Source of the DNA: Chloroflexota bacterium
Lineage (GTDB): Bacteria; Chloroflexota; Dehalococcoidia; E44-bin15
Assembly: GCA_030604825.1 (NCBI GenBank)
Contig: JAUVVB010000001.1
Coordinates: 1-56,701, forward strand
DNA length: 56,701 nt
Reading direction: 5' to 3'
The notes beneath the pieces are model-generated. The model ran no database searches and was not told the DNA's origin. It was given only the letters and a program-made list of their open reading frames with translations. A program made the position numbers and the translations under genes. Each line of letters opens with the position of its first letter. Position 1 is the stretch's first letter. Of the stretch, positions 14,962-20,105 are shown piece after piece.

Positions 14962-15555
<594 letters not shown>

Positions 15556-16079: not shown

Positions 16080-16500
16080 TTAGCGAAGGGTCTTAGGTAA
16101 AAGCTGCTGCACCCTTTGCCAGATAATACTCTCAATTTCCCTTTTAGGCAAAGAGCCATCGAGCACCAGCCAGCGCCCCGGCTCCTTTGCCGCCATCTCC
16201 AGATAGCCCTGCCTCACCCGCTGGTGAAAGGCGAGCTCCTCCCGCTCAAATCGGTCGCGCAAATTTTTTCGGGCCAGTCCCCGTTCCACCGAGATGTCCA
16301 GAAGAACGGTGAGGTCGGGGCGTAGCCCCTGGGTGGCGATGTTATTGGCGGCTTCGATGAGGGCGAAGTCCAGGCCCCGCCCATAGCCCTGATAGGCGGT
16401 GGTGGAGTCGGCAAAGCGGTCGCAGATAACTAGAGACCCCTTCTCCAGGGCGGGGCGAATCACCTGGGAGACCAGGTGGGCACGGGAGCACAGTGAAAAG
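16080..16500 (-). pseudogene. tmk: 5'-truncated native thymidylate kinase
   Basis: The GC-rich frame encodes about 140 C-terminal residues of a bacterial dTMP kinase: SRAHLVSQVIRPALEKG, the DRFADSTTAYQGYGRGLD motif, TVLLDISVERGLARK and the LID-like DRFEREELAFHQRV. The N-terminal third with the P-loop (expected G-x4-GKST) is missing. Homology begins at about 16500, right where the foreign gene at 16504 stops. Upstream in-frame codons to 16577 only reread the 3' end of that foreign gene. Without the P-loop it cannot be an active kinase. The native gene should have followed the R3H ATPase gene directly. Confidence 0.85.
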
Positions 16501-16503
16501 CTT

Positions 16504-16905
16504 TTAGGATATTCGGTCAAGATCTCCATCCAGAACTTTGAAATCGATAGCCTTAATCTCGTCAGCAAAATAATCAAAAGTAGGTGGGGGTTCCATTAAG
16601 AATATCTTTTTACCTAGCACGTGTGCGAACCCTATCTCCCAAAATGTATTTGCTCCAATCCAACCTTTGACACCATTCTTCTCGAAATTAACAACAAGTA
16701 TGGCGTCTCCCCGGGAGATCTTTTCGAAATGAGCCCGGATTAGGTCCATTCGCCTCTTCCGTTTTACATGTTCCTCTTTAGAACTTTTCCTTGCTGCTTG
16801 TGAGAGGTCAGGGTATTGAACTGTATGGCCCTTTTTATCTAAAAGCAAGCCGATAGAACGCATTTCATTCACAAAAGTAATGCTTCCGCAGATGGTAATT
16901 ATCAT
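16504..16905 (-). CDS. nucleoside 2-deoxyribosyltransferase-like protein
   Basis: The 133-residue protein has a Rossmann-like start (IITICGSITFVNEM) and the block GDAILVVNFEKNGVKGWIGANTFWEIGFAHVLGKKIFLM. Such GNTFxEIGFA blocks are typical of small nucleoside 2-deoxyribosyltransferase-like proteins related to the SLOG/TIR-like folds. The Glu in FWEIGFA occupies the position of the usual catalytic Glu. True members swap bases on deoxyribose; relatives act in nucleotide signalling or defence. It appears full length and stops exactly where the tmk remnant begins. It is divergent from the kinase gene, with about 130 bases between them. Confidence 0.7.
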   Translation of the reverse strand: MIITICGSITFVNEMRSIGLLLDKKGHTVQYPDLSQAARKSSKEEHVKRKRRMDLIRAHFEKISRGDAILVVNFEKNGVKGWIGANTFWEIGFAHVLGKKIFLMEPPPTFDYFADEIKAIDFKVLDGDLDRIS

Positions 16906-16966
16906 AGCAGCCCCTCACGCTAAACAAGGATTCCAATAGTCGTCACGAAAACTTCACCAAACAGGC

Positions 16967-17000
16967 TTGACTAACGCATGGGAATCAATGAAAATACTAT
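16967..17000 (+). promoter_or_regulatory. candidate promoter of the island kinase gene
   Basis: TTGACT (16967-16972) is followed by AT-rich GAAAAT at 17-nt spacing (16990-16995), with TACTAT slightly further on (16995-17000). It lies in the divergent intergenic region. The -35 is good but the -10 is ambiguous. Confidence 0.35.
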
Positions 17001-17034
17001 AGCACACCAGCAAAGAAGTTCAAGAGGGGAAAGT

Positions 17035-17724
17035 ATGCAGCGAAGAGCAAAATTTTTTGTCATTGAAGGTTTGGATGGGTCAGGTGTTACGACGCAAGCT
17101 GAGCGGCTTAAAAACTGGTTGGACAAGAGAGGGTACGAGGTGTCTCTTACAAAAGAACCGACCGATGGACCGGTAGGAGCGCTTATCCGTCTACATCTTG
17201 CCAGGAGATTATTCTTCGAAAAGGCCAAAGATAGCTTTGCTCCTTTGGATGATTATACCTTAGCTCTGCTCTTTGCTGCGGACAGAATGGATCACTTGAA
17301 TAATGTCATTTTGCCCAGACTGGATTCTGGTATTATCGTTATTTCTGATAGATATTATCTATCCTCCTTGGCGTATCAATCCCTGAAATTAGATTTGGGC
17401 TGGATAAAGCAGATGAATTCAAACTGTATGAGGCCCGACCTTACGCTATTTATAGACGTTCCAGCTCAAATTAGCAAAAAAAGAATAGAGAGGCAGCGAT
17501 GGCACGTCGAGCTATATGAGGATATTGAAATTCTCGAACGGGTCCAGCAGAGCTACTTGAAAATAATCCGAGAGCTCCTGCTTGAGGGGGAAAAAATTAA
17601 AATTATAAATGGAAACCAACCAGTACAAAAGGTACACTCGGAAGTAACAAATGCCATCAAGAAAGCTCTTTCCAAAACAGGTGTCCGATCACTTGAACAG
17701 TTAACCTACCTTCCGGATTCTTGA
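17035..17724 (+). CDS. divergent thymidylate kinase-like protein lacking the Walker A lysine
   Basis: The 229-residue protein is a P-loop nucleotide kinase of the dTMP kinase family: FFVIEGLDGSGVTTQAERL at the N-terminus, KEPTDGPVGALIR, the DRYYLSSLAYQSL motif near residue 104 and LTLFIDVPAQISKKRIE. The Walker A sequence is GLDGSGVTTQ, with GTT (Val) where the family has Lys; this differs from a Lys codon at two or more bases. The start is ATG 17035, after AAGAGGGGAAAGT. It may replace the broken native tmk, or the loss of Lys may mean a non-kinase role. The downstream dCTP-deaminase-like gene begins 23 bases later. Confidence 0.8.
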   Translation: MQRRAKFFVIEGLDGSGVTTQAERLKNWLDKRGYEVSLTKEPTDGPVGALIRLHLARRLFFEKAKDSFAPLDDYTLALLFAADRMDHLNNVILPRLDSGIIVISDRYYLSSLAYQSLKLDLGWIKQMNSNCMRPDLTLFIDVPAQISKKRIERQRWHVELYEDIEILERVQQSYLKIIRELLLEGEKIKIINGNQPVQKVHSEVTNAIKKALSKTGVRSLEQLTYLPDS

Positions 17725-17747
17725 AAGGTATGAAACGAGGTGAAACG

Positions 17748-18533
17748 ATGGGCGACGTGACTCTAATACGTGAGGATATTGCACAACTGGGCGAGAGTTT
17801 ACTGACACCCTTTGACGGCGACTGCCTTAAGGTTGCTTCATATGACATTAGGGTTGGTTCGCTGGTGTTCATAGCCTACCCTGAGGAAGAAGGCGGGGTA
17901 ACAGCGAATGACCTTCTTGCGATAGAGGGTAAGAACATGGTGAGCATACCGCCTGGTCAAGCTTGTGTTGTTCGAAGCTTGGAGAAAATTCAGATGCCAC
18001 TTTACATGAAGGGACATCTGTCGCTTCGCAGCTACTGGGCAACACAACTGCTGTCGTATACAGGAGGGCCCATAGACCCGGGCTACAAAGGGTTCCTCTT
18101 CTTCCCTGTCACTAACATTTCTGATTCGCCCATTTCGCTGCGCTATGGTGAACCGCTTGTTACAGCAGAGTTCGTCCGCCTAGCAACACCCGCTTCATCG
18201 CCCTTCTCCAAGGACGAGATTTTGACATTAAGAAAACCGCCGGGTGTTCCGGCTAGAAAGCCGTATGACCCAGTGAAGATGACCATTAAGATCGAGCAGT
18301 TGGATAAAAAGGCAGCTTCGTATGAACCTCTAATTGAATCCACGAGAAGAATAATGGACTCGATTGTCTTAGGTGTTGTTGCTGGCGTTGCCGCTGGCCT
18401 TATCGCCGGGTTCGCTGTTTGGTTATTTACACAGTTGCCGGGGGGAACTTTGGTGCCAGCGGCAGTCGGACTTGGTGTTGTGTTAGCACTCATAGTCGTG
18501 TTGTTAGTCGTGTTGTTAGTAAGGCAAAGATAA
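17748..18533 (+). CDS. membrane-anchored dCTP deaminase/dUTPase-fold protein
   Basis: The 261-residue protein has a dCTP-deaminase-like domain over residues 1-170. Recognisable are VASYDIRVGSLVF, the IPPGQACVVRSLEKIQMP segment, and GPIDPGYKGFLFFPVTN. Aligned by eye to E. coli Dcd, the catalytic Glu of the LEL-Y-N segment is Pro here, and the RSSLAR motif reads HLSLRS. Normal deamination is therefore doubtful. The C-terminus has two hydrophobic helices (about residues 201-223 and 230-257) separated by a short PGG turn, and ends in RQR. ATG 17748 is chosen because AGGTGA lies just upstream. It probably forms an operon with the kinase-like gene. Confidence 0.7.
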   Translation: MGDVTLIREDIAQLGESLLTPFDGDCLKVASYDIRVGSLVFIAYPEEEGGVTANDLLAIEGKNMVSIPPGQACVVRSLEKIQMPLYMKGHLSLRSYWATQLLSYTGGPIDPGYKGFLFFPVTNISDSPISLRYGEPLVTAEFVRLATPASSPFSKDEILTLRKPPGVPARKPYDPVKMTIKIEQLDKKAASYEPLIESTRRIMDSIVLGVVAGVAAGLIAGFAVWLFTQLPGGTLVPAAVGLGVVLALIVVLLVVLLVRQR

Positions 18534-18581
18534 GAATAGGAACCGCCAAGCGCCAGAGCTGTCTCACATGCTTCAAGATGA

Positions 18582-20105
18582 TCAACCCTCCCCCGCCTCG
18601 CCGCCGGAGCGAAATATCCTTACCCTTCTGCGGGGCTCCCTGCCCTTGCTCTTGGAGGCGAGGTTATAGCGCTCCGCTAGCTGGTGCTGGAGCATGCGGA
18701 TATAGGCGTTCTGGGGACTGAGCTCCACCGATTCCCTGCCCTCCATCACCCGGGCGATGGCCCGCTCCGCCTCCTCGATGGCGAAGCTGAAGGGCTCACT
18801 CGCGGTCTCCACATCGAAGATGTTGGCCAGAGCCCGCTCCATATGGGGGACTCTGTTGCCTTTGAGCACATAGATGGGAATGCCCGCCACCTCGGCATCG
18901 CGGATGGGCTGGGGCTTCCTGTGGAAGTAGCTTTTGGAGGTGATCAGCAGTTCCGCCTCCGCCACGTCATCCACCAGGCTCACCGGCAGCTCCATCCTTT
19001 TCGCTGCCTGCTCCAGCCGGCTACGATTGATGCCCAAGGGACAAACCCTTTTCTCTCTGCCAGGGGCGAGCCTCTCCGCCTTGGCCTTCTCGGGAAGGGA
19101 CATCCTCTCCCTTCTCACCTCGGCGCTCTCGTCCAGCCAGCGAAGCTCGGGGTGAGTGGGGCGCCCCCTGAGCAGGGAATCGACTACCGAGGTGACGTCG
19201 GAGTGGATGGCCACGTGATCCCAGTCCTGAATCTCCACCACGATATCGAAGGTGGGGGGTACCTTCCGCTCCAGAATGGATTTCCGGGTTCCCCGCCTCT
19301 TTGCCTCCTCATCCCCCAGGGTAACCGTCTGGATGCCGCCAACCAGGTCGGAGAGGGTGGGGTTCAGGATCAGGTTCTCCAGGGTGTTTCCGTGGGCGGT
19401 GGCCACCAGCTGAACGCCCCTCTCGGCGATGGTGCGAGCCGCCTGTGCCTCAAGCTCGGTGCCGATCTCATCGATGACGATCACCTCGGGCATGTGGTTC
19501 TCCACCCCCTCGATCATCACCGCATGCTGAAGCTGGGGGGATGGCACCTGCATCCTTCGGGCATGGCCGATGGCAGGATGGGGGATATCGCCGTCGCCGG
19601 CGATCTCGTTGGAGGTATCGACGATGATGACGCGCTTCTTCAGCTCGTCGGCGAGCACCCGAGCCACCTCGCGGAGCATGGTGGTCTTCCCCACCCCCGG
19701 CCGGCCCAAAAGGAGGATGCTCTTGCCGGAGCGGATCAGGTCCTCGATGATGCCAATGGTGCCGAAGACTGCCCTGCCCACGCGCAGGGTCAGGCCCACG
19801 ATGCGCCCCTCCCGGTTTCTGATGGCCGAGATGCGATGAAGGGTGCGGGCGATGCCAGCACGATTATCGCCGCTGAAGGCACCAATGCGGGAAACCACAT
19901 GTTCGATATCCTCAGCGGTGATCTCCTTGTCGCTGAGCACCACCTCCCGGCCGGGATAACGAGACTCAGGCAGCCGCCCCAGGTCCATGACTACCTCGAG
20001 GAGTTCGCTCCTGTCCTCCCTCTCCATCAAAGGCTGGGCGATGTGGGGGGGTAACCTCTCCAGCAAGGCATCCAGGTCGTCGGTGATCCTCTTACGCATC
20101 TCCAT
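18582..20105 (-). CDS. R3H domain AAA ATPase (Ycf45/SpoIIIAA-like)
   Basis: The 507-residue protein has a central ATPase domain with Walker [12 protein letters not shown] near residue 138 and Walker [10 protein letters not shown] near 206. The [20 protein letters not shown] segment follows. A C-terminal R3H-type motif (RMLQH, R-x3-H) suggests single-stranded nucleic acid binding. The family includes the plastid Ycf45 proteins and resembles SpoIIIAA. Its precise role is unknown. It lies just upstream of where native tmk should start, and its own start overlaps closely with the GNAT-like gene end (2-base gap). Confidence 0.85.

Follow-up and report, generated by a model that had tools for sequence, protein, structure and literature searches.

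Thymidylate kinase (Tmk) is encoded by an essential gene for DNA building. In Pseudomonas putida KT2440, tmk is split by a 65-kb island; all TMPK activity comes from the T4-like dNMP kinase PP_1964 that the island encodes, and none from the tmk segments (PMC10653934). Related islands are present in Pseudomonas, Acinetobacter, Psychrobacter, and Halomonas, some strains having no kinase gene other than the foreign one at the tmk locus (PMC10653934). We found a comparable arrangement in a Chloroflexota genome, within the 56,701-nucleotide stretch of DNA analyzed here (hereafter the window; Table 1). As in KT2440, foreign DNA breaks the native tmk, the tmk of relatives is intact, and the only complete kinase is a foreign, distantly related one, here called KIN, for which TMPK activity is predicted. 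Whereas the KT2440 island carries recombinases, leaves both halves of tmk in place, and brings a T4-type dNMPK, the present island is 2 kb long without a recombinase, has the 5' third of tmk deleted, and brings, in another bacterial lineage, a Lys-less Val-type TMPK of archaeal/Bacillota affinity. By analogy, the present case is best read as resembling the KT2440 tmk island, but as independent, compact, and based on a different enzyme.

Table 1. Features of the island, the tmk remnant, and their neighbors (window positions)
Feature	Position	Strand	Remarks
Left neighbor pyrR	14962..15516	-	Followed by pyrB and pyrC; conserved by synteny in relatives
Native tmk remnant	16080..16490	-	From about codon 76 to stop; DRF motif and LID region kept, P-loop gone
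Left island/tmk junction	16490..16503		Similarity to relatives' tmk DNA fades, small indels; 13 bp past NDT stop
NDT, nucleoside 2-deoxyribosyltransferase/nucleotide N-glycosidase-like, 133 aa	16504..16905	-	Family Glu kept (GANTFWEIGFAH)
KIN, Val-type dTMP kinase, 229 aa	17035..17724	+	Full-length PF02223; Walker A GLDGSGVTTQ
DCD, dCTP-deaminase-fold protein, 261 aa	17748..18533	+	Linker and two C-terminal transmembrane helices; Pro for catalytic Glu
Right junction	18534..18581		48 bp, from DCD stop to R3H ATPase stop
R3H/SpoIIIAA-like ATPase, conserved right neighbor	18582..20105	-	Pfam; 70 to 83% identity and synteny in relatives

The original prediction, made from the letters of the window, held that the native tmk is cut at about position 16500 and has lost its P-loop third to three AT-richer genes, and both points were borne out. 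The open reading frame at 16080-16577 (minus strand) matched Pfam Thymidylate_kin from profile positions 63 to 183 of 185 only, and its similarity to the Tmk of relatives started at about 16490, about 13 bp past the NDT stop codon. Some 75 codons are missing from the 5' end, and with them the P-loop and the EPGG loop; the lost piece was not found elsewhere in the 1.37-Mb, 91%-complete genome. The region from 16504 to 18533, with NDT, KIN, and DCD as its gene content, has a GC content of 45%, the lowest of any 2-kb stretch of the window, against a window mean of 58% and 60 to 63% in the flanking genes.

Family relatives have the order pyrC-pyrB-pyrR-tmk-variable cargo-R3H/SpoIIIAA-like ATPase-GNAT-like-pdxT-pdxS, and in the locus comparison tmk was intact in every one of them unless a contig end cuts the gene. 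Wherever a relative's locus is assembled, a single native-type tmk lies in this gene order, and a second native copy was never seen. Two genomes (G002 and G013) have tmk directly after R3H, with no cargo between. In the other relatives compared (loci L062, L063, L066, L068, L069, L076, and L077), the cargo varies: two DUF488 genes and one unknown gene, a PD-(D/E)XK restriction-like protein, DUF1848, a methyltransferase, or HicAB with a trypsin-like protease. Since different accessory genes lie between R3H and tmk in relatives, this junction is a hotspot for cargo in the family. The present genome is the only one among family relatives in which tmk lost a part to the insertion; the arrangement is thus absent from the relatives, and none was found to combine it with a second tmk, a finding that had been named in advance as counting against the original prediction.

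No integrase or recombinase was found within 16490-18581 by the list of open reading frames and a Pfam profile search, and a search for direct repeats or an att-like site at the island boundaries gave short repeats at chance level only. An assembly chimera was considered and rejected; a chimeric contig is unlikely because both island flanks belong to one syntenic locus in relatives. Besides, we observed in the neighboring pyr operon (loci L062, L068, and L070) that the PyrB proteins of the window and of G006 are 85% identical to each other, and only about 33 to 42% identical to the PyrB that G001, G008, and G002 encode at the corresponding place in the operon, a divergence that suggests a second gene replacement there.

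KIN matched PF02223 over the entire profile (positions 1 to 185 of 185; E value, 1e-44; 152.8 bits against a cutoff of 27) and TIGR00041 with 166 bits against a cutoff of 83. Its AF2 model (pLDDT, 85.5) reached TM scores up to 0.88 to solved TMPKs, giving a predicted TMPK fold, and the DR(Y/F) motif and invariant LID-region residues are conserved. KIN departs from canonical dTMP kinases in two respects: a TKEPT stretch replaces the usual TREPGG-type loop, and Val occupies the Lys position of Walker A, so that the pattern GxxxxGK[ST] is lacking. The Walker A lysine is normally important for phosphoryl transfer and for the grip on ATP. On these sequence features, we filed KIN as a Lys-less variant of dTMP kinase rather than as a canonical member. 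A sequencing error behind the Lys-to-Val change was rejected, the codon being GTT and the same Val recurring in seven other genomes. A purine-rich, Shine-Dalgarno-like stretch lies ahead of both likely start codons, that of KIN (17035) and that of DCD (17748).

In the tree, KIN joined two Bacillota MAG kinases (support, 97/93), and the native Tmks of the class and family lay on the opposite side (branch support, 97/87). A diverged paralog of the native tmk was rejected, as the tree sets KIN in a different lineage; the description of KIN as a divergent dTMP kinase therefore holds, but not in the sense of a diverged native copy. Judging from this placement, KIN is a horizontally acquired xenolog of the archaeal/Bacillota Val-type lineage. 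A single-protein scan of viral contigs with KIN gave no matches.

The genome has two Tmk matches only, KIN complete and the remnant partial, and a second native tmk elsewhere was rejected, none being found in the assembly. ThyX is present and ThyA is absent; dTMP is thus made by ThyX and must be phosphorylated, so that a dTMP kinase is needed. Together with the synteny, the tree, and relatives of KIN that are the only Tmk found in five other genomes, this supports the proposal in the original prediction that the element supplies a substitute kinase, and KIN most likely replaces the native Tmk as dTMP kinase. The truncation, the synteny, the foreign origin of KIN, and the lack of any other Tmk in the assembly are established, and we infer the expression of KIN, its activity without the Walker A lysine, and the order of events. 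Counting against this reading are, besides the lack of excess amino acid changes in the remnant (see below), the Val in Walker A and the 91% completeness, which leaves room for a second tmk, a case without precedent in the family. The latter two points favor an explanation in which KIN is inactive or differently specific and a native tmk missed by the assembly supplies the essential activity. We regard this as distinctly unlikely, in that the assembly does contain the native locus, in truncated form, no relative has a second native copy, and five other genomes yielded no Tmk apart from the Val-type enzyme.

The Val-type enzymes were collected by a pattern scan for their Walker A in 84,980 species genomes, in which 7 of 19 matches were real Tmks, from two Bacillota MAGs (52 to 54% identical to KIN) and five archaea. 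The motif GxDG[SA]GV[TS]TQ is common to all eight Val-type Tmks including KIN, and a stricter motif pattern, run on 400 phylum genomes, occurred in the present genome alone. In five of the seven other genomes, whose assemblies may be incomplete, the Val-type enzyme is the only Tmk found, and because of this it very probably works without the Walker A lysine. We found no biochemical data on Val-type kinases in the open-access literature. Their neighbors elsewhere are housekeeping genes (the ATP synthase operon and purB/helicase). KIN-related Tmks on viral contigs (L113 to L118 and L120 to L122) have Ser or Thr at the position of the Walker A lysine. In another genome (G033, C2:64704-66034, locus L135), two Tmk-like genes stand in tandem, one with Arg at that position (GTDGVGRST). 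The Lys-less label needs several changes on the tree, so the tree gives no single origin of Lys-less Tmks. We see even odds that a separate lineage of Lys-less dTMP kinases (with Val in this genome, archaea, and some Bacillota MAGs, and with Ser or Thr in the viral relatives) has full activity, is the sole dTMP kinase on which free-living cells rely, and moves across domains by displacing native tmk.

The remnant is 65 to 81% identical to the intact Tmk of family relatives, and 87% over a 71-aa piece. Its pN/pS against G006 is 0.196, compared with 0.19 for pyrR and 0.20 for R3H as intact neighbors, implying no excess of amino acid changes; this fits a recent truncation, and also a function that lingers. 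A truncated product working with KIN, for example, as a subunit, would accord with this ratio, with the open frame, and with the retained DRF motif and LID region. Such a role is nevertheless very improbable, as the remnant has neither a P-loop nor a convincing start, and the tmk segments of P. putida were shown not to contribute (PMC10653934). As an independent kinase, the remnant is implausible because the P-loop is absent, and we infer that it is dead.

The assignment of DCD to the dCTP deaminase fold was upheld by PF22769 (E value, 9e-12), and hydropathy agreed with the predicted two hydrophobic helices at its C terminus. DCD shares the fold and the DPG motif with dCTP deaminases, whereas it scores 59.5 bits against TIGR02274, below the equivalog cutoff of 92.8, carries a C-terminal membrane anchor, and has lost the catalytic Glu (FFPVTN, aligned with TMELSN in the genome's own Dcd). 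The Glu is likewise lost in five other C-terminally extended DCD-like proteins, and the genome's own Dcd keeps it. With the Glu missing, Dcd-type dCTP deamination by DCD is unlikely, and the dNTP-depletion idea loses its main enzyme. Elsewhere, in two genomes (L072:8226-9231 and L074:8379-9445), a Glu-less, C-terminally extended DCD-like protein is directly followed by a small RelE/ParE-type toxin look-alike with no Pfam match, a pair that is possibly a toxin-antitoxin system with a DCD-fold antitoxin. On pRlX2 of Rhizobium beringeri (L081:310-6145), a two-TM DCD-like gene stands between a Gabija-resembling pair of AAA ATPase and UvrD helicase, right behind which it lies, and a downstream gene for a small protein, MazG-like by eye and with no Pfam match.

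The identity of NDT stood less firmly than those of KIN and DCD, its match to Nuc_deoxyrib_tr (PF05014) being weak (E value, 0.004; 17.8 bits, below the Pfam gathering cutoff of 28.8). NDT shares a Gly-rich start and the Glu of the xxxExGxA motif with the nucleoside 2-deoxyribosyltransferase/DNPH1/MilB-BcmB superfamily, but has no close solved relative. The putative catalytic Glu (E90) is invariant in the homolog alignment and aligned, at weak E value, with TAWELG of 6evs. The low-confidence model (pLDDT, 53) gave weak structural matches to BcmB, NDT, MilB, and DNPH1, which are no more than suggestive. From its sequence, NDT is best assigned as a remote member of the deoxyribosyltransferase/N-glycosidase superfamily. 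A single-protein scan of viral contigs with NDT gave no matches.

The original prediction had offered, as an alternative, that the three genes form a dNTP-sensing or dNTP-depleting system, and this was not supported, given the Pro in place of the catalytic Glu of DCD and the rarity of NDT homologs: only 2 of 301 phylum genomes yielded any, in neither case next to KIN or DCD. Besides, about 1.5 kb around the DCD homologs fetched in the class showed neither KIN nor NDT. A conserved cassette was thus rejected, the same three-gene set not being seen at any of the DCD, NDT, or KIN homolog loci looked at; of the two outcomes named in advance as adverse, neither was fully obtained, and this one, the three genes never being found together elsewhere, was obtained only within these loci. 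The trio might instead be a nucleotide-based defense or conflict module lying beside tmk by chance, with KIN as a sensor or substrate-handling part, DCD as the membrane part, and NDT as the effector. In its favor, KIN and DCD are probably cotranscribed, judging from their gap of 23 bp; HicAB and a restriction-endonuclease-like protein occupy the R3H/tmk site in relatives; TM-anchored, Glu-less DCD proteins also occur on accessory replicons; and PADLOC gave weak matches of KIN to PDC-M51B and of NDT to ThsB. PADLOC found no convincing full-gene-set match to a known antiphage defense system, only single weak or generic matches, and that of KIN is probably generic for Tmk-like proteins. Given also the housekeeping neighbors of Val-type kinases elsewhere and the distribution of NDT and DCD homologs, we consider such a module rather unlikely. 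The NDT and DCD cargo itself may have a conflict- or defense-type role, since defense-like genes surround the site and some of the DCD homologs.

We therefore return to the substitution of tmk by KIN. The explanation that we hold to be probable is a self-compensating insertion, in which a foreign segment broke tmk and brought its own kinase. A short foreign segment would have inserted at the hotspot that separates the R3H ATPase gene from tmk, at the cost of some 75 codons from the start of tmk. The segment's own Val-type dTMP kinase would now make all dTDP from ThyX-derived dTMP, leaving the native tmk as a recent, dispensable remnant, and the NDT-like and DCD-like membrane genes would be linked cargo. 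If true, foreign DNA would here have struck an essential gene and supplied its replacement in one step, independently of the Pseudomonas-type islands. Furthermore, thymidylate kinases that seemingly do not need the Walker A lysine would allow a textbook rule of P-loop catalysis to be put to a direct test in an enzyme that is essential to the cell.
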